Source: Draconibacterium orientale
Lineage (GTDB): Bacteria; Bacteroidota; Bacteroidia; Bacteroidales; Prolixibacteraceae
Assembly: GCF_000626635.1 (NCBI RefSeq)
Contig: NZ_CP007451.1
Coordinates: 4,136,501 to 4,200,500 of the forward strand
DNA length: 64,000 nucleotides
Direction: 5' to 3'
The notes beneath the pieces are model-generated. The model saw only the letters and a list, made by a program, of their open reading frames with translations. It had not been told where the DNA came from and did no database searches. The first letter of the stretch is position 1, and the number at the start of each line of letters is the position of its first letter. The position numbers and the translations under genes were made by a program. This document shows, one piece after another, positions 321 through 16,137 of this stretch.

Positions 321-410
321 AAGCTGTAGATTACGAATTTAAAACTTTACTTTCTGTATTTTTAATTAATGACTTAATCTTACACCGATTGGAATAGTGT
401 GTTTAATGAA

Positions 411-495
411 ATTTACATCATTCTGTGTAAATTGCAAACTGCTCTTTGCAATTGAAAACTAATAGGATTTATTTGTTAACTTTTGGTAAATAATT
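411..495. promoter_or_regulatory. possible operator region upstream of rex
   Basis: The AT-rich leader of rex contains two imperfect inverted repeats: an AATTTAC/GTAAATT pair around 412-433, and a TTTGTTAAC/GGTAAATAA pair around 472-492. Rex proteins usually bind palindromes of the TTGTGAA or TTGTTAA type and often repress their own gene. The second element shares the TTGTTAA half-site but its other half is degraded. This is a weak inference. Confidence 0.25.
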
Positions 496-559
496 GTAGA
501 GATATAATAAAGAAAAAATTCTCTAATGTTGAATTGTTGCTATATTTAACGTAAACTAA

Positions 560-1225
560 ATGACAAAAGCTACAAAAGTGATTGCAGTAAGAAAAAATAA
601 AAAGCAGGTTCCGGAACCAACTTTACGAAGGTTGCCGGGCTATTTATTTTTTCTTGAAAAAGTTCGGGAGAAAGGGGTGATGAATATTTCAGCACCATCA
701 ATTGGAAAAGAATTAAAGTGCGATCCTACACAAGTGGTGAAAGATTTGGCATTTACTGGTGTTAAAGGAAAACCCAGGGTAGGGTACAATACCTACGAAT
801 TGTGTCATGCGTTGGAAAAATTTCTGGGATTCAATCAGGTAAATGAAGCTTTTCTGGTTGGAGCCGGTAATTTAGGTTCTGCTTTAATGGCATATCAGGA
901 GAACCAAACGTTGGGGCTGAAAGTGATAGCTGCATTTGATGTAGATGAAAAAAAAATTGGGCAAAACATCGGAAATACTCCGGTTTTAGAATATAACAAG
1001 TTGTTCCACCTCTCGAACCGCTTAGACGTTGAGATTGCCATTTTAACCACACCCAATAATGTAGCACAGGAAGTAGCTGAAGATTTGGTGAACTGTGGAG
1101 TAAAAGCAATTTGGAATTTTACGCACGAAATATTGGATCTGCCCGATCATATAATAGTTCAAAATACTTCAATGAGTTCGTCCACCGCTGTTTTGTTGCA
1201 ACGCTTGAACGATTCAAAGAAATAA
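560..1225 (+). CDS. rex: Redox-sensing transcriptional repressor Rex
   Basis: The 221-residue product matches the Rex family in length and layout. Residues about 20-85 form the winged-helix DNA-binding domain (PEPTLRRLPGYLFFLE at the start, then SAPSIGKELKCDPTQVVKDL). Residues about 95-205 form a Rossmann domain with the NAD-binding motif GAGNLG at 101-106, followed by the family's typical TTPNNVAQEVAEDL and IWNF segments. Rex senses the NADH/NAD ratio in the cytoplasm and represses fermentation and respiration genes when NAD is high. The ATG at 560 is preceded by an AT-rich leader without a clear Shine-Dalgarno sequence, as is normal here. A small ORF follows 17 nt downstream and is probably co-transcribed. 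Identification is firm; the target genes are unknown. Confidence 0.95.
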   Translation: MTKATKVIAVRKNKKQVPEPTLRRLPGYLFFLEKVREKGVMNISAPSIGKELKCDPTQVVKDLAFTGVKGKPRVGYNTYELCHALEKFLGFNQVNEAFLVGAGNLGSALMAYQENQTLGLKVIAAFDVDEKKIGQNIGNTPVLEYNKLFHLSNRLDVEIAILTTPNNVAQEVAEDLVNCGVKAIWNFTHEILDLPDHIIVQNTSMSSSTAVLLQRLNDSKK

Positions 1226-1242
1226 CTCAAAAAAGCAAAAAA

Positions 1243-1443
1243 ATGAAAAAGGTTAATTTATTTTTTAGATGCGTAGCTGATAGAATAAAGAAAAAATTCT
1301 TTAAAGGCGAAAAAAATGACAATAGTCAGGCGTGTGTTGAGCTCCAAAATATGGAAGCTGAAAGTAAACTAACAGCTGATGAGATTTACCGCGAAGAGTA
1401 TGCTAAAAATTATTGTATAACAACCCGCTGGCAAACCGTTTAA
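1243..1443 (+). CDS. Small hypothetical protein downstream of rex
   Basis: This is a 66-residue ORF that starts with ATG 17 nt after the rex stop codon. The N-terminal third is basic and hydrophobic (MKKVNLFFRCVADRIKKKFF), and the rest is acidic and hydrophilic, ending in CITTRWQTV. The spacing suggests co-transcription with rex. I do not recognise the family, and no membrane segment or cofactor motif is clear. A longer reading of the same frame begins at 1111 inside rex, but that overlap is a shadow. It is a short unverified gene whose existence rests on position and on an intact start and stop. Confidence 0.5.
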   Translation: MKKVNLFFRCVADRIKKKFFKGEKNDNSQACVELQNMEAESKLTADEIYREEYAKNYCITTRWQTV

Positions 1444-1621
1444 TTGCTTTATACTGCTATTTCAACTGCATTTTGTTCCCTTTAACTGATTGTTAAGCGA
1501 GTGTAATTCACTGCACAGAATTTAAACCTGCGATTCTCAAAAACATGCAACGCTTGTAATAGCCGTGTTGTATTGGTTTAATTGTTACATTTGTTTTTCT
1601 GAAACAACTAAATTTAATACA

Positions 1622-2458
1622 ATGAACAAGTCAGCACTTACTTTTCTGCTACTACTTTTCTTTACCCTCTCGTTAACTGCGCAGGATGTAAAACGTCCTG
1701 ACCCTCAGCCGGCACCTGAAACCAATGAATCGTTTAAACTTGGAATGGCAGGTTATACTTTCGTACATTTCGATTTGCAAACCACATTGGAAACCATGAA
1801 ACGGTGCGATGTGCATTACCTCTGCATAAAGGATTTTCATTTACCGGTAAACAGTACTTCGGAAGAAATTGAGGCATTTCATAAAAAATGTGCTGAATAC
1901 GGTGTTACCGGTTATGCGGTTGGACCACTTTACATGAAAAGTAAAGAGGATATCGATAAGTATTTTGATTATGCCAAACGAGTGGGTGTTAACACGATTG
2001 TAGGTGTGCCCGATTACGCGTTGCTTCCCTACGTAAATGAAAAAGTAAAGGAAACCGGTTTGTATTTTGCCATTCATTTGCATGGCCCCGATATTGATGT
2101 GTATCCCGATGCTGATGATGTGTGGAAACATACCAAAGATCTTGATCCGCGCATTGGCATGTGTCTCGATATTGGTCACGATACGCGAAACGGAAAAGAT
2201 CCGGTTGCCGATTTGAAAAAATACCACTCCAGGGTTTTCGATATTCATTTAAAAGATGTAACCGGCCGAACAAAAGACGGTTATTCGGTAGAAGTTGGGC
2301 GAGGTATTATTGATTTTCCCGCTTTTGTAAATATGCTTCGTGAAGTGAATTATACCGGAGCTGTAAGTTTGGAACACGAACGAAATATGGATGATCCGTT
2401 TATGGGAATAGCAGAATCAATCGGTTATTTCAGAGCAATGATCGCCGCAACAAAATAA
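1622..2458 (+). CDS. Secreted sugar phosphate isomerase/epimerase-like TIM-barrel protein
   Basis: The 278-residue product starts at the ATG at 1622, which directly precedes a signal peptide (NKSALTFLLLLFFTLSLTAQ); the upstream TTG at 1565 adds an unlikely extension. The body is an AP-endonuclease-2 type (xylose isomerase-like) TIM barrel: a GYTFVHFDL strand near the start, the metal-site strands FAIHLHGPD, GMCLDIGHDTRNG and FDIHLKDVT, and GAVSLEHERN near the end. The His, Asp and Glu residues on these strands are the usual divalent-metal ligands. Secreted members usually sit beside Gfo/Idh/MocA oxidoreductases, and one ends at 320, so a role in isomerising an oxidised sugar is plausible. Substrate is unknown. 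Confidence 0.85.
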   Translation: MNKSALTFLLLLFFTLSLTAQDVKRPDPQPAPETNESFKLGMAGYTFVHFDLQTTLETMKRCDVHYLCIKDFHLPVNSTSEEIEAFHKKCAEYGVTGYAVGPLYMKSKEDIDKYFDYAKRVGVNTIVGVPDYALLPYVNEKVKETGLYFAIHLHGPDIDVYPDADDVWKHTKDLDPRIGMCLDIGHDTRNGKDPVADLKKYHSRVFDIHLKDVTGRTKDGYSVEVGRGIIDFPAFVNMLREVNYTGAVSLEHERNMDDPFMGIAESIGYFRAMIAATK

Positions 2459-2476
2459 ATTCAGCTAAATAAAGTG

Positions 2477-2512
2477 AAAAGAGTTTTCCATGCCTGGGGA
2501 ACTCTTTTTTTG
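2477..2512 (+). terminator. Rho-independent terminator after the TIM-barrel gene
   Basis: AAAGAGTTTTCC at 2478-2489 pairs with GGGGAACTCTTT at 2497-2508 across a short loop, and a run of T follows. It lies about 20 nt after the stop codon of the epimerase-like gene. Confidence 0.8.
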
Positions 2513-2605
2513 TTTGTTTATCCCGGATCATGTTCAACATAAATAAATTAGTATTCTCATTGATTTCCGGCTTATATCGCAGCTAATTTTATATTTTTGC
2601 TGCAA

Positions 2606-3346
2606 ATGAAGATTGGAGAGTTATACAGAAGAAATGTTTATGGAGTAATCGGTACGCTGGTATTTCATATTCTGTTATTTTCTGCGTTTTTGCTGGCCGA
2701 TGTAAACAGGAAAGGCATTGTAAAAGAAGAGGAAATTTTAATTGAATTTCCGGCGGAAATGCTCGAATCCGAAATTATTGAACCCGAAACTGCAGAAGAA
2801 GAAAGTACAGATCAACCCGATAACGAGCAAACTACCAATACTCGAACAAATGTTGCTTCAAACCGGTCGGCAACGGAAAATACCACAACTTCAACCGACG
2901 AGTTTTTCGACGATGACTATTTAAAAGAGGTGGAAGCCGCCAAACAACTCGTTTCAAATGTCAATAAAAATCTTGCAAAAGAAACAGTTGATTTAAGCGA
3001 TATTGAAATGCCGGTTGAAACAACTGAAGGCATGGATCGCGATTCGATAAAGAACGTAATTTATGCCGGTGAAAGTAATATCGTTTATTACCTCGAAAAT
3101 CGGTATCATTTGCGTTTGCCTGTTCCGGTTTACTTAAGTCAGGGTGGAGGAACAATAATTGTCGATATTGTGGTAAATCGTCAGGGCGAAGTTATTGAAG
3201 CCGAACCTCGCGACGATCGGTCAATCCGTGATAAGCAGTTGTTCGCCTACGCAAAAGAGGCTGCAACCCGAACTGTTTTTAACAGCGATAACTCAGCGCC
3301 GGCGCGCCAAAAAGGAACAATCCAATACACTTTCGTAGCACAGTAA
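2606..3346 (+). CDS. TonB-family energy transducer-like protein
   Basis: The ATG at 2606 gives 246 residues; a TTG three codons earlier is also open. Residues about 13-32 (YGVIGTLVFHILLFSAFLLA) form a single N-terminal membrane anchor. Then comes a long acidic, Thr/Asn-rich linker (about 45-150) and a C-terminal domain (about 165-246) with RLPVPVYLSQGGG, IIVDIVVNRQGEV and GTIQYTFVAQ, the pattern of a TonB C-terminal fold. Such proteins link the inner-membrane proton gradient to outer-membrane receptors. The linker is acidic rather than the Pro/Lys-rich linker of classical TonB, and no ExbB/ExbD genes are adjacent, so this could be an orphan TonB-like protein. It stands alone, followed by a candidate small RNA unit. 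Confidence 0.65.
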   Translation: MKIGELYRRNVYGVIGTLVFHILLFSAFLLADVNRKGIVKEEEILIEFPAEMLESEIIEPETAEEESTDQPDNEQTTNTRTNVASNRSATENTTTSTDEFFDDDYLKEVEAAKQLVSNVNKNLAKETVDLSDIEMPVETTEGMDRDSIKNVIYAGESNIVYYLENRYHLRLPVPVYLSQGGGTIIVDIVVNRQGEVIEAEPRDDRSIRDKQLFAYAKEAATRTVFNSDNSAPARQKGTIQYTFVAQ

Positions 3347-3394
3347 ATTCAATGTTAATTGTTGGCAGGTTTAACACCATTTAACATCTTTTTC

Positions 3395-3425
3395 TTGTTG
3401 AATTTGCGCCATGGCTTTATCTTTG
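3395..3425 (+). promoter_or_regulatory. Bacteroidota-type promoter for a short transcript
   Basis: A TTG at 3395-3397 is separated by 20 nt from TATCTTTG at 3418-3425, which fits the TAnnTTTG -7 element used by the primary sigma factor of this phylum. No ORF follows within 80 nt, but a terminator does, at 3480-3511. Confidence 0.55.
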
Positions 3426-3431
3426 CGGTAC

Positions 3432-3511
3432 GTTTATTTTCATAAGTTTAGGTTTAGTTAGGTTAGTTAGTTTAATGAGAAAAGGATGGGTTGTTGAACC
3501 CGTCCTTTTTG
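3432..3511 (+). ncRNA. Candidate short intergenic RNA
   Basis: About 80 nt lie between the predicted promoter (TATCTTTG at 3418-3425) and a strong hairpin with a T tail (3480-3511). The segment contains an iterated GTTTAG/GTTAG motif (3446-3472) and no ORF of note. The arrangement of promoter, short body and terminator is that of a small RNA gene. It could instead be a remnant of a leader or an attenuator. I do not recognise the family. Confidence 0.35.
3480..3511 (+). terminator. Rho-independent terminator
   Basis: AAAGGATGGGTT at 3481-3492 pairs with AACCCGTCCTTT at 3497-3508 (one G-T wobble) around a GTTG tetraloop, followed by T residues. It sits about 135 nt after the TonB-like gene and ends the candidate short RNA. 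Confidence 0.8.
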
Positions 3512-3667
3512 TTTTTATAAGCCCTCAGAACATTAAGTCCAAAAGTTTCTTCTTTTTTAATTTAATTTTTATCTTTATCAAATCTTGTAACCGCTTGTTA
3601 ATAAGCGAAATTACACGTTTGCCAGGCGGGCAGGTATTAAGTTGAGGATAGAATAATTTTAAAAACA

Positions 3668-3704
3668 GGGTTACCTTTTACCCAATAATCGAATAATATA
3701 TTAG
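3668..3704 (+). promoter_or_regulatory. Candidate ECF sigma autoregulated promoter
   Basis: GGGTTACCTTTT at 3668-3679, an 11-nt spacer and GAATA at 3691-3695, followed by TATATTAG at 3697-3704, lie immediately upstream of the sigma gene. The same 12-mer, the same spacer length and GAATA recur at 8783-8810 in front of the peptide operon, followed by TATTAG. This does not look like the TAnnTTTG housekeeping promoter. The spacing of about 15 nt between TTACC and GAATA fits an ECF -35/-10 pair. Recognition by the adjacent sigma factor is inferred. Confidence 0.6.
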
Positions 3705-3707
3705 AAG

Positions 3708-4295
3708 ATGATAAATTATACGGATGCGCAAATCCTGAAAGGAATCTTAAGGCACGATAATTTAATTTTGCAGTACATATACAAACAGTACTACTATAAA
3801 GTAAATTATTTCATTAAGAAAAACCAAGGAAGTGAGGACGATGCCAGTGACATTTTTCAGGAGGCTATTATCGTAATTTACAGGAAAATAAAAGAAAATG
3901 ATTTAATTTTCGAAAAGAGTTCTTTTCAAGGTTATTTGTTTTCAGTGTGTCGGTTTTTGTGGTTAAAGCAACTGGAGAAACGACGTATTGAGAAAGAAAA
4001 GCTGAACGATTCATTACCGTTCCAGGAGGATGTTTACGACGACAACCTGGTAGAATTGGTGGACAAAAACCAGAAATACGGATTATATCAGAAGCATTTC
4101 AAAACTTTGAGTACAGATTGTCAGAAGCTATTACAGATGTTTTTCGAAAAGGTTCCGCTAAAAGAAATTGCGAGAATCATGGGATACAAATCTGAAAAAT
4201 ATGCTAAAACAAGAAAGTATAAATGTAAAGAACTGTTGATAAAGCGCATAAAGCAAGATACAGAATTTAAAAAGATACTTGAAGATGACACCTAA
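3708..4295 (+). CDS. ECF-type RNA polymerase sigma factor
   Basis: The 195-residue product has the two ECF domains. Region 2 lies at about 20-95 (LQYIYKQYYYKVNYFIKK, then DASDIFQEAIIVIYRKI and GYLFSVCRFLWLKQLEKRR). Region 4 lies at about 130-185 (LSTDCQKLLQMFFEKVPLKEIA, then a helix-turn-helix around IMGYKSEKYAKTRKYKCKEL). The ATG at 3708 follows a presumed self-recognised promoter. The next gene begins inside the end of this one (11-nt overlap), so the two are translationally coupled, and the partner looks like an anti-sigma membrane protein. It probably directs RNA polymerase to its own operon and to the peptide genes at 8860-9335, which share the promoter motif. The family call is strong; the regulon is inference. 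Confidence 0.9.
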   Translation: MINYTDAQILKGILRHDNLILQYIYKQYYYKVNYFIKKNQGSEDDASDIFQEAIIVIYRKIKENDLIFEKSSFQGYLFSVCRFLWLKQLEKRRIEKEKLNDSLPFQEDVYDDNLVELVDKNQKYGLYQKHFKTLSTDCQKLLQMFFEKVPLKEIARIMGYKSEKYAKTRKYKCKELLIKRIKQDTEFKKILEDDT

Positions 4296-5787
4296 AGCAG
4301 AATTATTTGGACGCATTGAAGATTACTGTTTAGATCTTTTAAACAAACCAGAGAGAGAAGAATTTGAAAAAGAGTTAAAATTAAACCCGGAATTAAGAGA
4401 AGAAGTTGAACTTCAGATGAATATCCAGAATGCCATATTGGAGATGGATGTTCTTGATCTTAAGGGGAAACTCGAAAAAATTCAAACAAACAGTACAAAA
4501 AATGGCAAGTTAAATGGCTCTTTCGAGCTGTTAGACGATTTCAGCGAATTTGAAGAAGCCACCGCAGAGTTAACACCCGAAGAACTCATTGAAAGTTTCG
4601 AATCGCTCCCAAAAGTTCATGTGTATCAGCATGAGCGAACCAGCAACGAAAACATACACCATTATTACAAAGAGCAAAACGGCTCTGAGCAGGTTGTTGT
4701 TGAAGATGACCTGAATGGTTTTGATATGGAAGGTCTGGAAGGACTTGAAGAGGCTATTCTGGAAACAGACATTTTGAACTTGCGCGAAACATTGCAGCAG
4801 GTTGCAAAATCTGTTGAACCACAATACTCGGTTGAAGATATTGACGCCTATCTTGAAGGAGAAATGGGGGATGATATTTTGGCCGAATTTGAAGGAGAGT
4901 TGAGCCAAAATGAACTGTTGCAATCTGAAGTTAATTTGCACAAGGAGCTTGAAATGGCTGTTGCAGAAAACGATGTAATGGATCTGAGAAGTGAATTGCG
5001 AAATATCATGGAGTCTGAAACATCGTGGAATGTTAGTGAGCAAGCCATTGAAGACTTTATTGATGGAGTACTGGAAGAAAGTTTGTTAGAAGAATTCGGT
5101 GCCGAATTGAAAGAAAATACCGATCTGATGGCGGAAGTGGCACTTCGCGAGAACATAAACGCTGCCGTTTCGGAAATGGATATTATGGGCTTACGTCAGA
5201 AACTGAAAGACGCAAGAGACGAATCGGAGAAGAAAGAGGTGAAATCGATAATAATGCCTCGTATCGAGATCGGTTCTACCAAATTCTGGCGCAGCAGTGT
5301 AGCCGTTATTTTGGTGCTGGTTGGTTTACTTGGCGTTATGCGAATGAATACCAATACGCTTGACAATTCGTACGATAAGTACATTGAATCATCAACATGG
5401 GCATCTGAACGTTCGGTTGACAGCGATATGAGCATAATACAGCAAGCTCAAATGTACTATCAGCAGAATGAGTTCCAAAAAACTATCGACCTGTTAAATA
5501 ATGTAACGGTTAACGCTGATGAGCAATTTGTGCCACAGTTTTATAAAGGATTAAGCTATCAGAATTTGAATAAATACCCGAAAGCGGTTACCGAATATTC
5601 TAAAGTTATCGATCACGGCAATAACATGTTTATCGAGGAAGCCGAGTGGTATAAAGCACTTTGTTACCTGAAAATGAATAAAAGGGCAGAAGCTAAGAAA
5701 GAATTGCTGGCAGTTATTGATCGCAGAGGTCATTACCAAAAAGATGCCAAGGCAATTTTAAGAAAGCTGAAGTACTCTTTTAAATAA
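4285..5787 (+). CDS. Membrane protein with three anti-sigma-like repeats and periplasmic TPRs
   Basis: The ATG at 4285 (500 residues) lies within the last codons of the sigma gene. The cytoplasmic half contains three copies of an approximately 54-residue acidic helical module at about residues 10-63, 182-236 and 252-305, plus a partial copy at about 155-170. Each runs from an (I/D)xDxxL/(Y)L start through EF...L..N..L..EV.L to A..E.D.(M/L).LR..L. A membrane helix (SSVAVILVLVGLLGVM) follows at about 337-352. The periplasmic C-terminus has TPR-like repeats (MYYQQNEFQKTIDLLNNV, FYKGLSYQNLNKYPKAVTEY, ALCYLKMNKRAEAKKEL). Coupling to the sigma gene suggests a membrane anti-sigma factor with a protein-binding sensor outside. 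It could instead be a scaffold; no zinc-binding anti-sigma motif is seen. Confidence 0.7.
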   Translation: MTPKAELFGRIEDYCLDLLNKPEREEFEKELKLNPELREEVELQMNIQNAILEMDVLDLKGKLEKIQTNSTKNGKLNGSFELLDDFSEFEEATAELTPEELIESFESLPKVHVYQHERTSNENIHHYYKEQNGSEQVVVEDDLNGFDMEGLEGLEEAILETDILNLRETLQQVAKSVEPQYSVEDIDAYLEGEMGDDILAEFEGELSQNELLQSEVNLHKELEMAVAENDVMDLRSELRNIMESETSWNVSEQAIEDFIDGVLEESLLEEFGAELKENTDLMAEVALRENINAAVSEMDIMGLRQKLKDARDESEKKEVKSIIMPRIEIGSTKFWRSSVAVILVLVGLLGVMRMNTNTLDNSYDKYIESSTWASERSVDSDMSIIQQAQMYYQQNEFQKTIDLLNNVTVNADEQFVPQFYKGLSYQNLNKYPKAVTEYSKVIDHGNNMFIEEAEWYKALCYLKMNKRAEAKKELLAVIDRRGHYQKDAKAILRKLKYSFK

Positions 5788-5834
5788 TTGAAGAATCGTC
5801 CAATAGATTAATTCGAAAATAGATACACATTCAA

Positions 5835-8723
5835 TTAAGCCTGTCGGTTTCGACGGGCTTTTTTTATGCGAATTCCCTGATCAATAGAAAAGGCAATAAT
5901 CAGAAGAATAAGAATGGCAAAAAAGTAAAGATCGTAACTGGTATAAACCGGAGAATTATCGCCAATACATTTAAAACTCATCCAGTAATGCGGATGAGAA
6001 AGTCTTGAATTCGATTCTTCCAGGTATTTTAGTTTTGCCAGCCGAAGTGCTTCGTCTTTTGTTTTTCCTGCTTTTAAGTACTTATAAAAGGAGGTCATAA
6101 TTTTTGTGCCGGCCGCATCTTCAACTTCCCACAGCGACATAATTACCGATGGGCATCCGGCATACAAAAAACCTCGGGCCAAACTCATCAAACCTTCTCC
6201 CTTTTGTAGTTTTCCTACACCGGTGTTACATGCGCTAAGCACGGTCATGCTTGCATTTAAGTCAAGGTTGTAAATATCAGCCGTATTTAGCCAACCGTCA
6301 TTGTCCAATGTGGTTGAGTCGGCTATTTGGCTAAAAGCTAAACGAGAGTAGGCTGGTAACGAGTCGTTTATGTAGGCGTGCATTGCCAGGTGAAGAATGT
6401 CAAAATTGCCGCTCTTCTCTCTGAAATTTTGCTCGCTGGCATCTTTACTTCTAAAAATTGTCGTGTTAACTGATTTTGCAATTTCGTCAACTTCTTTTTG
6501 TACGCCCGGTAGCGGTGCCAGTTTATAGCTTGTGCCTGTCATTTTAAATTCTTCAGAATTGTATTCAGGAGCAAATGCCAGTGTATGGTTTCGAAGCTTT
6601 GGTTTTGAAGCTTTGTTTTTCAGGAAAATATTTACTGAATTGGCGTAATTAATATTTACATCTTTTACCAGGTAATTCAGTTCGTTAAAGCGTATGGTTT
6701 CGCTCGTGTCGGGTAATGTTTTTAGTAAGCCGTCGAATGAAATGTAATTTAGTTTACCATCAGGTATAATAGTCAGATGTTTTTCATGAAGATCGTTTTC
6801 AAAAGGAGCAATTAGTAAATTGTATAGATTGTGCGAAGAAATACAGTACTGTTTAGCATCTTCGTTGTGTGTAAACATGTAATCGGTTGATGACATAAAC
6901 CGAAAAGTTTCTTCTAAAGCTTGTATGTCAGAAGGACGAAGTGTCTTTTTGTGAAAATCAATCTTTTCGTTTGTAATAAAAAACGTGTACAACGAAGCAA
7001 GTGTGTCGGTTTCATTGCCATTGTTAATTTTTTCTGATGCTGGTTCAGCTAAAAAATACTCAACAATCGCTTCTTTTCTATCAACCTTATCTTGAATTTC
7101 ATTTAAACTGAGGGCAGAATTGGAATATTTTAACTGGTAATAATCGGGGTAGCTTTCTTCCATGTAACGATTCAATTCGTCTCGTTGACGTGATGCACTA
7201 AAAATCTTATCGTTATATTCTTCCAATAATGAACTATCCGGTTCATTGTAGCTTAATTCTTCGTATTGTAATTCGGAATAGTTGGCAATGGTATTGTTTA
7301 ATTTACGTTCCAGTTCCAACAGGCTATCAGGAATTAAACTATTTTCCTGAGCCAGTTCATTGGCAATTTTATCGAACAGCGCGCTACTTTTTAGCTGTTC
7401 TGAATTGTTAAAAGCAATGTAAAGGAACTCCTGATTTTTCGAGTAATTGTAGGCAAGATACGCGGTTTCAATAATTTTGCTAATGGTTTGGTATTGCAGG
7501 TTCGACAGCTGAATTTTGCTTTCATCGTTCGAAATTTCTTTTCTGGCCTGTTGGATAAGGTTGCTGGTATTATTATAAGAGCTTAGGGCATAATCAAGGT
7601 TTTTACTGAACTCCATGCCTTTATTTTCATTGTCAAGCAGAGCTATTTCATGGTAAACATCACCAATTACTTTTATCAGACCAATACAGTCTATTAGAGA
7701 ACGAGTTTGTCGGACTTTTATGTCAGAATATTCAGGATTAGTTTGTTCAACTTCCAAGGCAGCTAGTCCTTTTTTATAGGAATCTATTGATTTTATAAGA
7801 TTTTGTTTTTTCTCTCTTCGGAATCGGTTTATTTCCTGCGTATTTATAGCTCTATTTCGGTATATATTTCCTTCATATTCATAGTAATTGGAAAGTTCTC
7901 TTCCAAAATTTTGTTGATTTTGCAATATTTTATATGCTAGAGATAGGTTTTCAATTGCCTTTTCAAAGTTATTAATTGCAGAAAGAAATTCTGCGTAACT
8001 CATATAGGCATAGGCGAGGTCTAAACCTTTGCCATAATACCGTTGTGAGAATGATATAGCATGGTTGTAATGATAATCTGCTCTTTCGAATTGTTTAAGG
8101 TTGTAATAACTACCTCCCATAATATTATCAAAATATATTTGATTGGATGTATCTGCTGATGCATAACATTTTTTAGCAATCTCGATAACGGATTGGTAGT
8201 TCTTTGTAACAAACTCCACCTCTGCAATAGCATAATAAGAGTCTACTAGATTTGCTGTATTTATTGGAGTTTGTGAATTATAGAAATTAACTGCTTGATT
8301 ATAATATTTCAGGGCATTGGTATAATCCAATTTAGCTCTGTATGTATTTCCAATATTTATATAAAGGTTACCGAGCAAACCATAATTTAATGGCTCCCGA
8401 AGAAACATATTTTTCTCAGACAACATATAATTTTTCAATGCCTTTTCATTTTCTCCTAGATTTTTATAGCTGATTCCGATGGAATAATAGGCTGTTGCCA
8501 GATAATAATTTTCATTTCCGAAAATTTTTTTTCGATACTCGAGGTATTGTTTAAAAACTTCCAGTGCCTCGTTGTGTTTCCCATCACGAGTAAAAATCGC
8601 TCCTTCTCTTCGTAAGGCGTTGGAAATCTGAAGTAAGGAGTCGGTATTCAGTACTTGGCTAAGTAATATATTGGGTAGGAATAATAAGTAAAAAACGAAG
8701 CTTATTCTCTTTGCAATTGTCAT
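5835..8723 (-). CDS. TPR-repeat CHAT-domain protein (caspase-like protease), secreted and membrane anchored
   Basis: The product has 962 residues from the ATG at 8723, which starts a signal peptide (MTIAKRISFVFYLLFLPNILLS); the frame extends upstream only to a TTG at 8765. Residues about 25-450 are TPR repeats (for example YSIGISYKNLGENEKALKNY, YYNLKQFERADYHYNHA). The C-terminal CHAT domain (about 560-910) has the caspase-like dyad: His782 in LHLAMHAYIND and Cys832 in LSACNTGVGKLQKGEG, followed by SLARGFLYAGCPSVIMSLW. A membrane helix (about 932-948) and a basic tail (RIKKARRNRQA) end the protein, so the protease domain should face the periplasm. CHAT proteins are caspase/separase relatives. 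It runs towards the sigma/anti-sigma pair and away from the peptide genes. Substrate unknown; the peptides or the anti-sigma protein are candidates. Confidence 0.88.
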   Translation of the reverse strand: MTIAKRISFVFYLLFLPNILLSQVLNTDSLLQISNALRREGAIFTRDGKHNEALEVFKQYLEYRKKIFGNENYYLATAYYSIGISYKNLGENEKALKNYMLSEKNMFLREPLNYGLLGNLYINIGNTYRAKLDYTNALKYYNQAVNFYNSQTPINTANLVDSYYAIAEVEFVTKNYQSVIEIAKKCYASADTSNQIYFDNIMGGSYYNLKQFERADYHYNHAISFSQRYYGKGLDLAYAYMSYAEFLSAINNFEKAIENLSLAYKILQNQQNFGRELSNYYEYEGNIYRNRAINTQEINRFRREKKQNLIKSIDSYKKGLAALEVEQTNPEYSDIKVRQTRSLIDCIGLIKVIGDVYHEIALLDNENKGMEFSKNLDYALSSYNNTSNLIQQARKEISNDESKIQLSNLQYQTISKIIETAYLAYNYSKNQEFLYIAFNNSEQLKSSALFDKIANELAQENSLIPDSLLELERKLNNTIANYSELQYEELSYNEPDSSLLEEYNDKIFSASRQRDELNRYMEESYPDYYQLKYSNSALSLNEIQDKVDRKEAIVEYFLAEPASEKINNGNETDTLASLYTFFITNEKIDFHKKTLRPSDIQALEETFRFMSSTDYMFTHNEDAKQYCISSHNLYNLLIAPFENDLHEKHLTIIPDGKLNYISFDGLLKTLPDTSETIRFNELNYLVKDVNINYANSVNIFLKNKASKPKLRNHTLAFAPEYNSEEFKMTGTSYKLAPLPGVQKEVDEIAKSVNTTIFRSKDASEQNFREKSGNFDILHLAMHAYINDSLPAYSRLAFSQIADSTTLDNDGWLNTADIYNLDLNASMTVLSACNTGVGKLQKGEGLMSLARGFLYAGCPSVIMSLWEVEDAAGTKIMTSFYKYLKAGKTKDEALRLAKLKYLEESNSRLSHPHYWMSFKCIGDNSPVYTSYDLYFFAILILLIIAFSIDQGIRIKKARRNRQA

Positions 8724-8782
8724 CAGATGTTGTGATTTATACCACCAAAATAGAACTTTTTTCAATTTTTTTCAAAAAAGAG

Positions 8783-8816
8783 GGGTTACCTTTTTCTACT
8801 TATCAGAATATATTAG
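8783..8816 (+). promoter_or_regulatory. Candidate ECF-dependent promoter of the peptide operon
   Basis: GGGTTACCTTTT at 8783-8794, an 11-nt spacer and GAATA at 8806-8810 followed by TATTAG match the element at 3668-3704 upstream of the sigma gene in sequence and spacing. It lies 50 nt before the first peptide gene. The shared motif suggests that both units are transcribed by the same ECF sigma factor. Confidence 0.6.
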
Positions 8817-8859
8817 TGAATGTGTGTTTTAAAAGTTTAACGAATTAATTTATTATACG

Positions 8860-9006
8860 ATGAAAAGGGTACAGTTTGAATCAACAGAAAATACTTTCGA
8901 AGTTAAGGGTTTTGAAGTAATCAGCGAGCAAGCAATGAGCGAAGTTCGTGGTGGCGGAACTCCAAAATCAAGAGACAAAGACATTTTTGACTTTGAAGAA
9001 GAATAA
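8860..9006 (+). CDS. Double-glycine leader peptide, copy 1
   Basis: This is a 48-residue peptide gene, the first of three in tandem. Its C-terminal 18 residues, GGGTPKSRDKDIFDFEEE, are identical in all three copies, while the N-terminal 30 residues diverge (MKRVQFESTENTF...). The part before the cut point, VISEQAMSEVRGG, fits the double-glycine leader pattern: hydrophobic residues at -12, -7 and -4 and GG at -2/-1. Such leaders are cleaved by C39 peptidase transporters during export of bacteriocins, pheromones and modified peptides. The tail codons differ from copies 2 and 3 only at silent positions, which shows selection on the protein. No transporter or modifying enzyme is nearby. It is not homologous to a peptide I can name. 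Confidence 0.75.
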   Translation: MKRVQFESTENTFEVKGFEVISEQAMSEVRGGGTPKSRDKDIFDFEEE

Positions 9007-9036
9007 GAAAGTATTTAACTGGTAAGATTTAAAGAT

Positions 9037-9174
9037 ATGAAAGTTATAGCTGATTTTTTTATAGAAAGCAATAGAGGTTTTGATGTATTGACTGAAGAAG
9101 CGATGAACGAAGTTCGTGGTGGAGGAACGCCAAAATCAAGAGATAAAGATATTTTCGATTTTGAAGAAGAATAA
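9037..9174 (+). CDS. Double-glycine leader peptide, copy 2
   Basis: This 45-residue peptide gene begins 30 nt after copy 1. The leader (MKVIADFFIESNRGFDVL...) ends in LTEEAMNEVRGG, with Leu, Met and Val at -12, -7 and -4 before the double glycine. The mature part would be GTPKSRDKDIFDFEEE if cleavage follows the second glycine. The product is strongly acidic at its C-terminus (DFEEE) and has no cysteine, so lanthionine or disulfide chemistry is excluded. Ser, Thr, Lys and Asp side chains remain available for other modifications. Against copy 1 the 18 tail codons differ at six positions, all silent. It is probably co-transcribed from the 8783-8816 promoter. Confidence 0.75.
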   Translation: MKVIADFFIESNRGFDVLTEEAMNEVRGGGTPKSRDKDIFDFEEE

Positions 9175-9191
9175 GTCATAAAAACAGAACG

Positions 9192-9335
9192 ATGAAAGCT
9201 ATAACGATACAATCACAATACAATTTAGATAATTTCGGTTTTGATGTTCTTTCGCAAGAAGAACTAAATGAAGTTCGTGGGGGAGGAACACCAAAATCAA
9301 GAGATAAAGATATTTTCGATTTTGAAGAAGAATAG
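9192..9335 (+). CDS. Double-glycine leader peptide, copy 3
   Basis: This 47-residue peptide gene begins 17 nt after copy 2. Its leader (MKAITIQSQYNLDNFGFDVL...) ends in LSQEELNEVRGG, which again satisfies the -12, -7, -4 and GG pattern. The tail is identical in protein sequence to the other copies and nearly identical in DNA to copy 2 (two silent changes plus a different stop codon), so copies 2 and 3 arose by the more recent duplication. A terminator follows 34 nt downstream and closes the operon. As with the others, processing and function are inferred from the leader pattern; a role as exported signal, toxin or protease substrate remains open. Confidence 0.75.
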   Translation: MKAITIQSQYNLDNFGFDVLSQEELNEVRGGGTPKSRDKDIFDFEEE

Positions 9336-9368
9336 CCTATATACAGAACCAATTGAGTTGTTAGTACA

Positions 9369-9407
9369 GGGGTTAAAACACGGACGGTTTTACCCCTTTT
9401 TTTGTAC
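9369..9407 (+). terminator. Rho-independent terminator of the peptide operon
   Basis: GGGGTTAAAAC at 9369-9379 pairs with GTTTTACCCC at 9387-9396 (one bulged base) and is followed by seven or more T residues. It separates the peptide genes from the convergent methyltransferase gene. Confidence 0.8.
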
Positions 9408-10545
9408 TTACTTTTCCTTTCCCTCAAATAGCCGGTAATTATTAAATTTACATTTTAAAGCCCCGTTAAACAAATCGATTCGTTGTGCTGGTTTTAGTCC
9501 AACAAACTTTAAACTATCTATCGATGAGCTTAAAATCCAGGCACTGTTGCCGGCATATTGGTGTTTTAAGCGCTCACCAATCATTGCATAAAGACCATCG
9601 AGGTCATTTTCCTTCAACCTTTCTCCGTATGGAGGATTTGTAACGATGGTTGCATTATCTAAATCAATATCCAGGTTTTTAAAATCGGTACAGGCAAATT
9701 GTATTTTATTAAACACTAAGGCACGTCGTGCGTTAGTTTGTGCATTTAATAAATTACTTCCCGAAATATCCGATGCATAGATTTTATGTCTGAATTCTCT
9801 TTTCTCAACCGGTTCCGTAACTTTTTCCCAAAGCAAAGGGTCAAAATCGTTCCAAAGTTGAAAAGCAAACTCTTTTCTGAATTTAGCCGGAGGAATATTC
9901 TGAGCAATCATTGCGGCTTCAATAGGCAAGGTTCCTGATCCGCACATCGGGTCCATAAAATCCGAATTTCCAAGCCAACCTGAAATATAAATCATACCGG
10001 CAGCAAGTACTTCGTTTAAAGGTGCGTCGCCCTGTTTTACACGATAACCTCTTTTGTGTAACGATTCGCCCGAGCTGTCAATCGACAAAGTACAGTTATC
10101 CTGAAAAATATGAACATTTATAATAATATCCGGATTATCGGTGTCAACACTAGGACGTTTCCCGAAATTCTCACGAAAATAATCGGCAATGGCATCTTTC
10201 ACCTTAAGTGAGGCAAACATGGAGTTTCTGAACTCTCGTGAGTTTACAACAACACTGTTAATTACAAAATTCTGATCGACGTTAAAATAGTTTTGCCACT
10301 TTATTCTTTTGCATTTTAAGTAAAACTGATCGACGTTTTTTAAAATTGAAATGTTCAATTTCTTTTAAAATGCGCAAAGCTGCACGAAGGTTATAGTTTG
10401 ACTTATAGATGATTTCAAGGTCTCCGTCATAAAATACGGCACGTTTTCCGCGTCGTACGTTTTTACCGCCAATGCGCTTCACTTCTTTGGCCAAAACATC
10501 TTCCAGTCCGGAAAAGGTTTTTGCAATTAATTTATACTCTTTCAA
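9408..10545 (-). pseudogene. THUMP-domain class I RNA methyltransferase (RlmL/YpsC-like), frameshifted
   Basis: Two overlapping frames together encode one protein of about 378 residues. The N-terminal part (10545 to about 10340: MKEYKLIAKTFSGLEDVLAKEV...) starts a THUMP domain. The rest (about 10340 to 9408) completes THUMP and carries the methyltransferase: FMDPMCGSGTLPIEAAMIA as the AdoMet motif, YASDISGSNL, and the catalytic motif IVTNPPYGERL typical of N2-guanine methyltransferases of 23S rRNA. The frames join if one A is removed from the six-A run in the coding strand (plus strand 10336-10341), giving NFKNVDQFYLK. This is a real frameshift or a base-calling error. Because the downstream part looks fully conserved, error or very recent mutation is more likely than long decay. 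Confidence 0.85.
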
Positions 10546-10560
10546 TGATTTGATTTTTTT

Positions 10561-11487
10561 TTAAATACCTGCTCCGTCCATAAACGGAATATCTCTCGGG
10601 CGTTTTTGCACTACACGAGAATTGGCCGGAAGGTCGTTGGTTACCCACACATTACCTCCAATAACAGAGTTTTCGCCAATTGTTACGCGGCCCAGAATGG
10701 TTGCTCCTGCATATATAACTACGTTGTTTTCCAAAATCGGGTGACGTGGAATTCCTTTTATCGGGTTACCATCGTCGTCAAGTGGAAAACTTTTTGCTCC
10801 TAAGGTTACTCCCTGATATATTTTTACATGATCGCCAATAATACATGTCGATCCAATTACAACTCCAGTACCGTGGTCGATCGTGAAACTCTCGCCAATT
10901 TGAGCACGTGGATGGATATCTATTCCGGTTTCGCTGTGCGCCATTTCGGTAATAAAACGTGGAATAAGCGGAACGTCCAACTGTAACAATTTGTGGGCGA
11001 TTCGGTAGTTTGTAATTGCCCGGATTCCCGGATAGCTAAAAATAACTTCGCCAAAGTTTTTTGCTGCCGGGTCATTTAGAAACGTGGCCTCAACATCGGC
11101 TACTAATCTGCGCCTGATTTCGGGCAAAAACTCGATAAAAGCAACCGCTTTTTCCTGAGCACCTGTTCTGTGCTTTTCAACTCTTTGTTCCGACTCGTCG
11201 GTGCACTCAAAACACAGTCCGGCTAAAATCTCACGGGTAAGCATGTCAAGTAACTCATCAACATAAACTCCCATATAATGCGGAGTTATGGTGGTTTTTA
11301 ACGTGGTTGTTCCGAAATAGCCGGGGAAAAGAATCTCGCGAACCAGGTTGATAATTCGTTTCAATTGTTTATTTGATGGTAGCGGGTCTCCCATCAAATG
11401 TTTATGACAAACTAATTTGTACGATTCCGGGTTACTCAGTTTGCTTACTGTTTCTGAAATTATCTGGTCTACTGTATTATTTGTCAT
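10561..11487 (-). CDS. cysE: Serine O-acetyltransferase (EpsC/CysE type)
   Basis: The 308-residue product makes O-acetylserine from serine and acetyl-CoA, the first step of cysteine synthesis. Residues about 1-160 form the helical N-terminal domain, longer than in the short EpsC forms. Then comes a left-handed beta helix of hexapeptide repeats (IDIHPRAQIGESFTIDHGTG, VVIGSTCIIGDHVKIYQGVT, NNVVIYAGATILGRVTIGEN). The conserved HGTGVVIG and YQGVTLGAKSF segments carry the active-site and acetyl-CoA contacts, and DHGTG holds the catalytic His. The C-terminus (RVVQKRPRDIPFMDGAGI) lacks the usual Ile-ended tail motif of E. coli CysE. The gene lies 15 nt after the methyltransferase start on the same strand. 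No O-acetylserine lyase is in view. Confidence 0.9.
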   Translation of the reverse strand: MTNNTVDQIISETVSKLSNPESYKLVCHKHLMGDPLPSNKQLKRIINLVREILFPGYFGTTTLKTTITPHYMGVYVDELLDMLTREILAGLCFECTDESEQRVEKHRTGAQEKAVAFIEFLPEIRRRLVADVEATFLNDPAAKNFGEVIFSYPGIRAITNYRIAHKLLQLDVPLIPRFITEMAHSETGIDIHPRAQIGESFTIDHGTGVVIGSTCIIGDHVKIYQGVTLGAKSFPLDDDGNPIKGIPRHPILENNVVIYAGATILGRVTIGENSVIGGNVWVTNDLPANSRVVQKRPRDIPFMDGAGI

Positions 11488-11572
11488 ATTCTCGAATTAT
11501 ATTACAAAACTAATTACATTCATTTAAGAATTGTAACATATAACGTATAAAACAAGGTTCTTGTTGAAGGTT

Positions 11573-12097
11573 TTAATCTAAACTTGAGATGACCTTAATT
11601 ACTGCTTTTTTCCGCTCTTCGTAATTCCCCTTTATTATATGATAAGGGAAGTCGTAATTTTTCAGTTCCTGGATGTAAGTTTGCTGAAGTTTTTCGCGAT
11701 CAATTCCGCCGTTCTCGCGAACACTGTCCGGAACCCACGGCAAATCAATATCACATACTAAGAAAGTGTCTATATGGATTTCTTTTATCGCCTGTTCAAT
11801 CCAGGAAGGAACTTTGTCATATACAACATCCAGCCAGATTTTAGTAATCAGAAGCCAGGTATCTAAAATAATTAATGGGGGCTGCTGCAAAACCATTTCG
11901 TTGTATTGTTCAATTTGCTTTTTAGCAATCAGAATAACATCATCGTAGGTGTATGAGCGATGCAATTGTTCTACGTAACTTCTTGCAAATTCGGGTACGA
12001 AAGGTACATTATAATGCGTTGCCAATGCTTTGGCAAGTGTACTTTTCCCGGTTGATTCGGCTCCGGTAATGGCAATTATTTTAGTTTTTTGCTTCAA
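11573..12097 (-). CDS. NadR-like ribosylnicotinamide kinase domain protein
   Basis: This 174-residue P-loop protein has a Walker A motif at about 11-18 (GAESTGKST), a YVEQLHRSYTYDD stretch, and a Walker B-like strand (LIILDTWLLITKIWLD) as in the C-terminal kinase domain of NadR. DIDLPWVPDSVRENGG is a typical lid segment of the family. The enzyme should phosphorylate nicotinamide riboside to NMN in the cytoplasm, trapping it after import. It overlaps the upstream pnuC by 17 nt, which strongly supports the function. Unlike full-length NadR, it has no DNA-binding or NMN adenylyltransferase domain, so the final NAD step must be elsewhere. Confidence 0.85.
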   Translation of the reverse strand: MKQKTKIIAITGAESTGKSTLAKALATHYNVPFVPEFARSYVEQLHRSYTYDDVILIAKKQIEQYNEMVLQQPPLIILDTWLLITKIWLDVVYDKVPSWIEQAIKEIHIDTFLVCDIDLPWVPDSVRENGGIDREKLQQTYIQELKNYDFPYHIIKGNYEERKKAVIKVISSLD

Positions 12098-12686
12098 TAT
12101 TTTTCAGGTCTTTTCTCCACTCAATATAGCCCAGCAGAGCCATAACGGTGTAAACAATAAATAAAATTACGGTTGCCCACAAGCCTTTGTACACATACAG
12201 TCCTGCTGAAAACGCATCGATAAATATCCAAAGCAGCCAGTGTTCGATGTACTTTCGTGCAAGCATCCAGGTGGCAACAATACTTAGTGCTGTTGTAACT
12301 GAATCCATGTGCGGAACATCGGAATTGGTATAATTGCTTAATATAAAAAAGAGTAGGGCATAAAGGGCAATTGAAACCACTGTCAACTTCATCCACAATG
12401 CTTTGCGCGTGGTTTTAACAGCAACCTTCTTTTCGTTTTGTTTTTTACCCGTAAGCCAGAAATACCAGCCGTAAATACTAATAACGACGTAATAGGCCTG
12501 AAGGCCCATGTCGGCGTATAAGCGGGCATTAAAAAATACAAACACATAAAGAGCCGAGGTTAATAACCCGGTTGGCCACGTTAAAATGTGTTGTTTAATG
12601 GAAAAGAAAATGTAAACTAAACCAAGAATGGCTCCCAGTATTTCAATATAATTACCTAAGAGCCATTCCAAAACTATATCAGTCAT
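12081..12686 (-). CDS. pnuC: Nicotinamide riboside transporter PnuC
   Basis: The 201-residue integral membrane protein has about seven hydrophobic helices. The family signature segments are ILGAILGLVYIFFSIKQHILTWPTGLL at the start (the WPTG motif is diagnostic), YYVVISIYGWYFW in the middle and WIFIDAFSAGLYVYKGLWATVILF near the C-terminus. PnuC proteins carry nicotinamide riboside across the inner membrane by facilitated diffusion. The gene overlaps the downstream kinase gene by 17 nt, and metabolic trapping by that kinase would drive uptake. Some PnuC relatives carry riboflavin or thiamine; the kinase neighbour favours nicotinamide riboside. Confidence 0.9.
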   Translation of the reverse strand: MTDIVLEWLLGNYIEILGAILGLVYIFFSIKQHILTWPTGLLTSALYVFVFFNARLYADMGLQAYYVVISIYGWYFWLTGKKQNEKKVAVKTTRKALWMKLTVVSIALYALLFFILSNYTNSDVPHMDSVTTALSIVATWMLARKYIEHWLLWIFIDAFSAGLYVYKGLWATVILFIVYTVMALLGYIEWRKDLKNIEAKN

Positions 12687-12691
12687 AAAAT

Positions 12692-14335
12692 TTAATCAAC
12701 TGTATCAACTGTAACTAAGAGCGCTGCATATTTATCCTGGTTATCAAAAACCTCAAGAGCTTTTAAAATAGCATCGTCATCTTCGTTCAAAATTTTATAC
12801 ATGTCGTTTCTGGAGTACACATCGCGGGCAATCAAAGCTTTGAGTTCGCGCTTAAGCTCATCTTTAAGGTATGATAAACTTTCTTCGTCTTTCTCAATTC
12901 CTTCCTCAATACCAATGGCAACAATTTGCTCAATGTTCTCTTCCGTGATTTCGAATTTGTCATTGAACCTGTCAAAGTCAGGATATTGTTTGGCCATATC
13001 TTCACGATGAAGATCAACATAATCTAAAACAAAATTATAGGTAACCCGCTTTCTTCTCAGGTTATTAATGTAGGCATAATGCGAAGATGTGTCCATGGGT
13101 ACAAAAATATCAGGCATTACACCACCGCCACCATAAACATTACGGCCGTTAACCAGCGTTTTATGTTTTAATTCATCGTCAAAATGAATACTATCGGCAT
13201 TAAACATCTCACCGTTACTAATTCGGTTGGCATAATCTTTACGGTATTCGCTAATGCCTTCTTCATAAGGCTTCTGAATACATCTGCCACTTGGTGTGTA
13301 ATAGTGTGCCGTTGTTAAACGAATCATCGATCCGTCGTTCAGGAAGAATGGTTTTTGTACCAATCCTTTTCCAAACGAGCGACGGCCAATTATCACTCCA
13401 CGGTCCCAATCCTGAACAGCTCCCGAAACAATTTCGCTTGCAGAGGCCGAACCTTCGTTAACTAAAACAACCACTTTCCCGTCCTCAAACGAACCTTTTG
13501 CTGTAGCTTTGTAGTCTCTTTTCGGATCGTTTGTGCCATCCGTATAAACAATCAACTGGTCATCGGTTAAAAACTGGTCGGCTAACTCAATGGCCGACTT
13601 TAAGTAACCTCCGCCATTGTTTCGTAAATCAAGCACCAGGTTCTGGATTCCTTCTTGTTTTAAATCCGACATGGCTGATAAAAACTCTTCGGTTGTAGTT
13701 GCCGAGAATTTATTTAGTTTGATATAGCCGGTAGTCTCATCAAGCATGTAAGAAGCATCCAGACTATAAATTGGAATTTTGTCTCTTTCAATGGTAAATT
13801 CAAGTGGATTGGCTTCCCCTTTTCTGGCAATGGATAAGTCAACTTTGCTACCTTTTTCCCCACGTAACAAATCAAAAACATCCGAGTTTTTCAAGCCTAT
13901 TCCGGCAATGTTTTTACCGTCAACCTCAATTATCCGGTCGCCTGCAAGCAAGCCAACTTTTTCGGAAGGACCTTCGGCAATTACGGTAGTAACCATCAAG
14001 GTATCTTTATAAATGTTGAATGAAATCCCGATCCCCTCGAAGTTTCCTTTTAGCGGTTCGTTCATTTTATCCACTTCTTCTTTCGAAATATAGGTTGAGT
14101 GCGGATCAAGCTCCTCAAGCAAATGCACAATGGCTTTTTCTGTTAAGTCATTAACATCTGCAGAGTCAACATAGTAGCCATCTACCAGTCGCAGTAAACG
14201 GGCAAATTTTACCTGGTTTTCCTGCACCTCGTTTTGTGCTTGCGTGTAAACAGGGCCAATCAGGAATATTGCTAAAAATAAACCCAGACCAATTGTTTTA
14301 ATATGTTGAATTTTTGTTACAGCCATAATTCTCAT
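12692..14335 (-). CDS. C-terminal processing peptidase (S41 family, Prc/CtpA-like)
   Basis: The 547-residue product begins with a signal sequence (about residues 9-32), so it acts in the periplasm; a second ATG three codons in (14326) is an alternative start. Residues about 85-180 form a PDZ domain (GISFNIYKDTLMVTTVIAEG, VGLLAGDRIIEVDG). Residues about 195-365 form the S41 protease domain with LDLRNNGGGYL, catalytic Ser298 in EGSASASEIVSGA and general-base Lys323 in SFGKGLVQ. The C-terminal 150 residues are a helical extension common in Bacteroidota members. These proteases degrade or mature periplasmic proteins from their C-termini. The gene ends 6 nt before pnuC starts and has its own promoter at 14374-14403. 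Confidence 0.92.
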   Translation of the reverse strand: MRIMAVTKIQHIKTIGLGLFLAIFLIGPVYTQAQNEVQENQVKFARLLRLVDGYYVDSADVNDLTEKAIVHLLEELDPHSTYISKEEVDKMNEPLKGNFEGIGISFNIYKDTLMVTTVIAEGPSEKVGLLAGDRIIEVDGKNIAGIGLKNSDVFDLLRGEKGSKVDLSIARKGEANPLEFTIERDKIPIYSLDASYMLDETTGYIKLNKFSATTTEEFLSAMSDLKQEGIQNLVLDLRNNGGGYLKSAIELADQFLTDDQLIVYTDGTNDPKRDYKATAKGSFEDGKVVVLVNEGSASASEIVSGAVQDWDRGVIIGRRSFGKGLVQKPFFLNDGSMIRLTTAHYYTPSGRCIQKPYEEGISEYRKDYANRISNGEMFNADSIHFDDELKHKTLVNGRNVYGGGGVMPDIFVPMDTSSHYAYINNLRRKRVTYNFVLDYVDLHREDMAKQYPDFDRFNDKFEITEENIEQIVAIGIEEGIEKDEESLSYLKDELKRELKALIARDVYSRNDMYKILNEDDDAILKALEVFDNQDKYAALLVTVDTVD

Positions 14336-14373
14336 TTTTTAGTAATAACGAAACAATCACGCAATAAGTCTGC

Positions 14374-15933: not shown

Positions 15934-15960
15934 GAAAAACTTCTTTAGTTAATGAAAGCA

Positions 15961-16112: not shown

Positions 16113-16137
16113 AGCGAATTTTTAAATCCACTTTTTA

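Follow-up and report, generated by a model that had tools for sequence, protein, structure and literature searches.

The 64,000-nucleotide stretch of Draconibacterium orientale DNA analysed here (the window; contig NZ_CP007451.1, positions 4,136,501-4,200,500) encodes, side by side, an extracytoplasmic function (ECF) sigma factor (SIG), a membrane anti-sigma-like protein (ANT), a CHAT protease-like protein with tetratricopeptide repeats (TPRs; the protein is called CHAT below) and three double-glycine peptides. We propose, at a probability of about 0.45, that these components may constitute a self-contained envelope signalling circuit, in which CHAT would act as site-1 protease and the peptide tail would feed back. 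Comparison of sequences established a conserved cassette, a shared predicted promoter, linkage to an exporter in relatives, species-private peptide tails and intact predicted active-site residues. The source genome (5.13 Mb) belongs to the Prolixibacteraceae (Bacteroidota). L-numbers designate loci and G-numbers genomes, G000 being the source genome.

Composition and conservation of the cassette

The cassette comprises the following features:
3668..3695, + strand: predicted ECF promoter of the sigma/anti-sigma operon, GGGTTACCTTTT-N11-GAATA (motif searches)
3708..4295, + strand: ECF sigma factor SIG, 195 aa (TIGR02937, PF04542)
4285..5787, + strand: ANT, membrane anti-sigma-like protein, 500 aa (ATG at 4285; transmembrane segment 334-352; C-terminal TPRs)
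5410..5415, + strand: codons of ANT R376-S377, candidate site-1 cleavage bond (75-protein ANT alignment)
5835..8765, - strand: TPR-CHAT protease-like protein (TTG at 8765, ATG at 8723; PF12770)
8783..8810, + strand: predicted ECF promoter of the peptide operon, GGGTTACCTTTT-N11-GAATA (motif searches)
8860..9006, + strand: double-glycine peptide 1, 48 aa (reading frame, peptide profile)
9037..9174, + strand: double-glycine peptide 2, 45 aa (reading frame, peptide profile)
9192..9335, + strand: double-glycine peptide 3, 47 aa (reading frame, peptide profile)

The 3' end of SIG overlaps the start of ANT, CHAT is convergent with ANT, and the peptide genes are divergent from CHAT. Reading frames and Pfam and TIGR profile matches recovered, at the positions given there, every gene type named in a preliminary description of this DNA.

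SIG belongs to the ECF sigma-70 superfamily (TIGR02937, 50.7 bits, cut-off 42.9; PF04542, 25.7 bits, cut-off 24). ANT consists of repeated N-terminal modules, which were read from the sequence and in part recovered as a direct repeat, a single transmembrane segment (TM) located at residues 334-352 by a hydropathy scan, and C-terminal TPRs (PF13174 over cut-off). Given this single TM, the N-terminal modules should be cytoplasmic and the TPRs periplasmic. The anti-sigma model NF052375 was matched in part (26.7 bits against a cut-off of 100, E=4.9e-6). In an alignment of the 75 ANT proteins having the TM, from which the TM-less best matches of L185 and L204 were left out, the linker outside the membrane was weakly conserved except for an aromatic pair and an arginine followed by serine, glycine or alanine. 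This arginine was present in 71 of the 75 proteins, with S, G or A as the next residue in 70 of those 71; the ANTs without it (L167, L169, L179, L199) have Arg-Gly one column off. Arginine is a frequent P1 residue among caspase-clan proteases, which makes the Arg-Ser/Gly/Ala bond, R376-S377 in the window, a plausible scissile bond in a comparison that had no CHAT-free control set.

The CHAT domain was recognised with 195 bits (PF12770, cut-off 24, E=2.5e-57), and hydropathy and Pfam scans revealed an N-terminal hydrophobic stretch, TPRs and a TM close to the C-terminus. This last TM was seen in 70 of 73 CHAT reading frames and was missing in L064, L068 and the fragment L181. The hydropathy scan predicts a periplasmic, C-terminally membrane-anchored protein, in agreement with the periplasmic location given in the preliminary description. 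The residues H792, H796 and C846 (counted from the TTG at 8765), which we take to be the catalytic residues of CHAT proteases, were invariant in all 69 aligned CHATs, leaving the predicted active site intact. Within the genus, divergence is faster in the TPR half than in the CHAT domain; the values for the CHAT of L047 were 55-59% over residues 1-240 versus 90-98% over 801-960. Searches of PDB sequences returned TPR proteins, and the CHAT domain alone gave two weak unrelated matches (E 0.2 and 0.86).

CHAT homologues (E<=1e-30) were detected in 62 of 101 relatives, and 40 loci around such homologues contained a SIG match in 35 cases and an ANT match in 37. The three-peptide profile gave 57 matches, distributed over 27 of 61 genomes; each of the 27 belongs to the genus and carries CHAT. 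The preliminary description had placed the peptides in one system with CHAT and the sigma factor; in related genomes they were not found to be common without CHAT, as 55 of the 57 matches lay within 1 kb of it (at most 614 bases away) and the other two on separate contigs. In the six CHAT-less genomes of the genus (G011, G014, G018, G022, G023, G025) the profile found nothing, and a scan of the genome collection for the tail yielded two loci, each beside CHAT. SIG homologues (E<=1e-25) occurred in 94 of 294 genomes of the order. Among 40 order-level SIG loci, mostly the top of the sigma list by score and thus not a random sample, a CHAT match was located within the fetched stretch in 33; CHAT was elsewhere in the genome for six of the other seven, and the seventh (L166) was outside that check. 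A phylum-wide sigma scan gave three of 392, namely the source genome and two of the same class.

Two subtypes were distinguished among the 40 order-level loci. The peptide subtype, with double-glycine peptides encoded next to CHAT, comprised 15 of them (L167, L169, L170, L172, L174, L176, L180, L183, L185, L192, L196, L197, L198, L201, L204). In 12 others (L173, L175, L177, L187-L191, L194, L195, L202, L203) a secreted protein of about 400-440 aa is encoded in place of the peptides, upstream of CHAT and on its strand; the remaining 13 had neither partner, had no CHAT or were cut off. The secreted proteins of these 12 loci and of L078 are mutually alike in 78 of 78 pairs, and the C-terminal sorting domain of the type IX secretion system (T9SS; PF18962) was over cut-off in both of the two tested. 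A tree of CHAT separates the subtypes for the most part, L167 and L169 falling on the opposite side. In eight order-level loci (L171, L175, L177, L180, L185, L188, L191, L192), inspection of N-terminal sequences by eye suggests a recurrent frame for a soluble protein, possibly of histidine-kinase type, close to CHAT or the peptides; it is clearest in L180 and L185.

Predicted promoters and the linked exporter

A promoter motif shared by SIG and the peptides had already been noted in the preliminary description. Both sites, putatively sigma-dependent (GGGTTACC in short), are real, and the exact form is unique to them: the spacing between GGGTTACCTTTT and GAATA is 11 bases at each, and the pattern GTTACCTTTT-N9-13-GAATA matched the whole 5.13-Mb genome twice, at the SIG and the peptide site, while the reversed control gave 0 matches. 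A longer pattern with one mismatch had a single additional site in the genome (G000:C1:2166680) and was present in 34 of 61 genomes. The genus, with 37 genomes, accounts for 33 of these, and the control gave three matches overall.

Among Prolixibacteraceae loci containing both upstream regions, the motif preceded both genes in 28 of 32 (27 by script; L059, which has a split CHAT frame, by inspection). In L069, L073 and L074 it was present on the peptide side only, and in L076 on neither side. At the level of sequence, both linkage and promoter sharing are shown within the family. In L196 and L197 the upstream regions of SIG and of the peptide have a changed motif in common, with 26/30 and 25/30 identical bases, respectively; 30 shuffles of each reached no more than 24 and 19. 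This covariation is the best sign, among the promoter comparisons, that one sigma factor would read both sites. Joint control of SIG and the peptides, as suggested before, is supported by the motif at both places in 28 of 32 family loci and by the shared changed motif of L196 and L197. The 30-base upstream match scored above every one of 30 shuffles in only 7 of 23 loci (L169, L172, L196, L197, L201, L071, L077) and did not pass this test in the other 16, the window included (20 versus a shuffle maximum of 21); L070 and L072 had no SIG. In L167 and L169, where the peptide is on CHAT's strand, inspection found the motif at both places, and L174 has a looser form. No shared promoter was shown in L180, L183, L185, L192, L198 and L204. 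A search with three mismatches was uninformative (71 and 73 matches versus 103 and 112 for the reversed control).

Further occurrences of sigma-type motifs were observed within the genus. The one-mismatch site of the source genome (L114:3181, at G000:C1:2166680) reads GGGTTACTTTTT-N11-GAATA, a form that recurs across many genus genomes; a terminator-like hairpin follows within about 100 bases, ahead of a secreted-protein gene. In six genomes (L116, L117, L119, L126, L127, L130) the motif faces, in convergent orientation, the 3' end of a gene that by eye resembles argS. A hairpin-like stretch and a T run follow it, which may represent a small RNA or only the terminator of the argS-like gene. 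In L120, L121, L122, L125, L129, L131 and L132 the motif lies upstream of the gene for a conserved orphan protein (120-133 aa) that contains LPTAFPAHYYGMPNG or a close form. This protein, a possible further regulon member, precedes a gene for about 920 aa in L121, L122, L131 and L132.

The preliminary description had reported the absence of a transporter. No recognisable transporter gene was found beside the cassette in the window, but the statement does not extend to other families, in which a C39-ABC/HlyD exporter adjoins the peptides. The source genome encodes two C39-ABC exporters. One (G000:C1:3036143), the likely exporter of the cassette's peptides, stands with an HlyD gene, with no peptide detected; the other (L135:4378-6564, in G000:C1 at about 1.36 Mb) lies near a different double-glycine peptide-like frame (L135:8659-8859). 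An orthologue of the first exporter with at least 59% identity was present in all 16 peptide-subtype genomes tested, the source included, versus 1 of 13 T9SS-subtype genomes, of which a second (G158) reached 47%. The Fisher test on these counts (16/16 versus 1/13, p=2.5e-7; with G158 2/13, p=2.3e-6) was set aside, since the CHAT tree contains one change and one independent pair and the data are not independent; we therefore relied on physical linkage.

In 7 of 17 genomes (G082, G189, G275, G128, G240, G150 and G230, the last without a detected peptide) a distance of 331-1518 bases separates the orthologue from CHAT. It lay within 10 kb of CHAT in 11 of the 17, on another contig in four and far off in two, including the source genome. 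In L170, L172, L174, L176 and L196 the peptide and the exporter are collinear with a frame that by eye looks HlyD-like; L197 shows the same arrangement, interrupted by a single frame. Because the orthologue adjoins CHAT or the peptides in relatives, the missing local transporter in the window probably means that the linkage was lost locally. Inspection by eye revealed no modification enzyme in these six collinear loci; a possible radical-SAM-like frame was seen in L199. Upstream of SIG, a gene at 2597-3343 on the + strand of the window has a conserved position across most loci of the genus and several of the family; a Pfam scan of it gave nothing over cut-off.

Peptide tails and the proposed circuit

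The three window peptides end identically in EVRGGGTPKSRDKDIFDFEEE, the 16-residue tail being GTPKSRDKDIFDFEEE. Their leader is of the double-glycine form, with matches to PF10439 below the curated cut-off (E=0.012-0.037); TIGR04149 scored 13 bits for one peptide (cut-off 25) and was not listed for the other two. The peptides are short, acidic and free of cysteine, unlike typical bacteriocins. Three peptide matches were obtained in 15 of the 27 peptide genomes. Sets of three near-identical tails, as emphasised in the preliminary description, are confined to part of the genus; other species have a single peptide and other tails. The biggest set encountered consists of four tandem peptides with nearly identical C-terminal tails (L180:3540-4458). 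In one member of the family, four peptides at L075:11084-12349 end in GTVIAPGGTILQ or near variants, a tail unlike the others.

The tail-pattern set contained 55 peptides from 26 loci, L063 and other deviant forms being left out; its between-locus tail totals mixed registers and were unused. A codon test covered the 12-codon tail core of 44 peptides from 15 genomes with at least two peptides, among which L050 and L051 are nearly identical. Per pair, paralogues within a genome showed 0.23 nonsynonymous and 2.51 synonymous codon differences (43 pairs), compared with 2.05 and 1.94 for the same copy in different genomes (301 pairs). The observed 10 nonsynonymous paralogue differences compare with a mean of 82.6 and a minimum of 54 after shuffling of genome labels within each copy, and none of 5000 permutations was as low. 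Synonymous differences were not lowered (108 observed versus 100.5 permuted). As the nonsynonymous differences between paralogues were reduced and the synonymous ones were not, the likeness of tails within a genome is, on this codon evidence, attributable to selection at the protein level and not to recent gene conversion. The last 17 leader residues displayed the opposite trend, with an identity of 0.70 for the same copy between genomes versus 0.59 between copies within a genome. A ligand with one cognate partner would show such a tail pattern, which does not by itself single out the partner.

In the proposed circuit, ANT would keep the ECF sigma factor at the inner membrane. Once activated, the periplasmic, anchored TPR-CHAT would cut the ANT linker as site-1 protease, most likely at R376-S377, and further proteolysis would release the sigma factor, which would transcribe its own operon and the peptide genes. 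The C39-ABC/HlyD exporter would secrete the peptides and cleave off their leader at the double glycine; their species-specific tail may act back via the TPR surface of CHAT, closing a positive, pheromone-like loop. We infer in particular the binding of the sigma factor by ANT, the cleavage of ANT by CHAT, the recognition of the tail by CHAT and the positive sign of the loop. The arrangement of the promoters and the way the tails have evolved would fit an autoinducing peptide. A more specific version is put forward tentatively and with some doubt: a caspase-like protease would be the pheromone receptor, the tail binding to the CHAT TPRs, ANT being cut at Arg-Ser/Gly/Ala and the sigma factor making more peptide, with the core re-used together with a T9SS-secreted partner in sister families.

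Several observations weigh against this circuit. Four CHAT-bearing genomes of the genus (G015, G021, G028, G035) had no match to the peptide profile; G028 and G035 are less than 80% complete, and a divergent peptide is encoded at L063 of G021. At the order level the strict motif preceded SIG in 12 of 31 loci, stood on CHAT's far side in 4 of 31 and was present at both places in 4 of 31 (L170, L172, L176, L201); a shared promoter outside the Prolixibacteraceae is weakly supported by these motif counts. With one flanking protein controlled, tail divergence tracked the divergence of every part of CHAT, ANT and SIG, and therefore no receptor region is indicated. Export by C39-ABC/HlyD systems normally ends beyond the outer membrane, so that a periplasmic receptor would need a return route. 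The replacement of the peptide by a T9SS-type secreted protein in other families favours a wider role of the CHAT-sigma core, of which peptide sensing would not be the only one. According to the part of PMC11106740 available to us, Craspase CHAT proteases cleave the non-conserved bonds A-S, L-D and M-K, and hence the conserved arginine of ANT need not be the CHAT site. Structure predictions from three-sequence alignments were of low confidence for ANT (mean pLDDT 35.9) and CHAT (mean pLDDT 48.8) and remained unused.

The peptides could instead be an output only, made by a core that senses another envelope cue and serving as antagonistic, matrix or surface effectors without feedback. A sigma-type promoter, the dedicated exporter adjoining the peptides in relatives and a dosage raised by multiple copies, up to the four of L180, would suit such a function. 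We nevertheless consider it rather unlikely: short, acidic, cysteine-free peptides do not resemble typical bacteriocins, an immunity gene was not recognised by eye in the eight loci examined, and tails that are alike within a genome and changed between genomes point to a single specific partner, within the cell or the species. Alternatively, CHAT might survey export in the manner of DegS, being activated by a cognate polypeptide that accumulates in the periplasm, with a sigma response that matches supply to export capacity. This would account for the exported polypeptide encoded next to CHAT in both subtypes, be it a peptide with a C39 exporter or a T9SS cargo, and would require no passage back through the outer membrane. 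The exact promoter, however, occurs in the genome only before the sigma operon and the peptides; the response would yield more substrate and no exporter, which is a positive and not a homeostatic logic and renders surveillance improbable.

That CHAT is a maturation protease whose substrate is the peptide tail instead of ANT, with the conserved SRDKD as one conceivable site, appears very unlikely. Genus tails hold a conserved arginine, as does the ANT linker, and CHAT is encoded divergently beside the peptides; yet tails in other families can be free of arginine (L170, L172, L174, L180) while the ANT arginine is kept, and CHAT is retained where the secreted protein replaces the peptide. A chance neighbourhood of genes with no common function, for which nothing speaks beyond the shortness of the peptides, is scarcely credible in view of the conserved linkage and promoters. 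The proposed feedback circuit of CHAT, ANT, SIG and peptides is open to a simple reporter test of its main claim, afforded by the two-site regulon together with a synthetic 16-residue tail. If the peptide is the ligand, the circuit would constitute a density- or kin-sensing mechanism, and as a means by which bacteria sense their own peptides it would be unusual.

Relation to known systems

Among the matches listed in a search of the open-access literature (subscription papers and preprints lying outside it), no description of this gene combination, nor of such a circuit in the phylum, was found. The available part of PMC8195603 describes caspase-domain, ECF sigma and TPR genes occurring together in other neighbourhoods with other partners. 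Here, TPR-CHAT, an anti-sigma-like protein and an ECF sigma factor are encoded together in many families of one order, a natural setting free of CRISPR arrays that makes the function of bacterial CHAT proteins outside CRISPR testable. Within window positions 1-20000 no CRISPR array was present: two of the three direct-repeat families correspond to the peptides and the ANT modules, and none is array-like. As to Cas7-11, csx30 and csx31 next to the TPR-CHAT gene, PADLOC gave no match at E<=0.1 for the six proteins scanned, with a library not checked for csx30, and the neighbours were read by eye.

Streptococcal peptide circuits can lead to an alternative sigma factor. The conserved leader, variable tail and C39-ABC export resemble the double-glycine pheromones of streptococci, as far as these are described in the accessible part of PMC7595303; unlike there, the host is Gram-negative, the window cassette has no two-component receptor and the candidate receptor is a TPR-CHAT protein. 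The leader also resembles the double-glycine motif of class II bacteriocins and of the Bacteroidota precursors of TIGR04149, from which the peptides differ by scores below the curated cut-offs, the lack of cysteine, an acidic tail and the lack of a recognised modification enzyme in relatives.

The regulated site-1/site-2 proteolysis of membrane anti-sigma factors of the RseA/DegS type, named in the part of PMC10028731 available to us, is paralleled by a membrane anti-sigma-like protein whose linker, immediately outside the membrane, contains a candidate cleavage bond. In contrast to RseA/DegS, the candidate site-1 protease is a caspase-like CHAT protein, and ANT has TPRs and, in Prolixibacteraceae, several N-terminal modules. 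The same source describes the Csx29-Csx30-CASP-sigma system, in which a TPR-CHAT protease cleaves an ECF sigma inhibitor and thereby changes transcription, with sigma motifs in its own locus. As in this Craspase/type III-E CASP system (PMC10028731), TPR-CHAT, a sigma-inhibitor-like protein and an ECF sigma factor are encoded together. To the extent covered by that source, Csx29 is RNA-activated and works with Cas7-11, whereas the CHAT described here is predicted to be periplasmic and anchored, the inhibitor is a membrane protein, and double-glycine peptides and an exporter belong to the Draconibacterium system. By analogy, Craspase is the nearest known logic and offers a worked example for the circuit proposed here.

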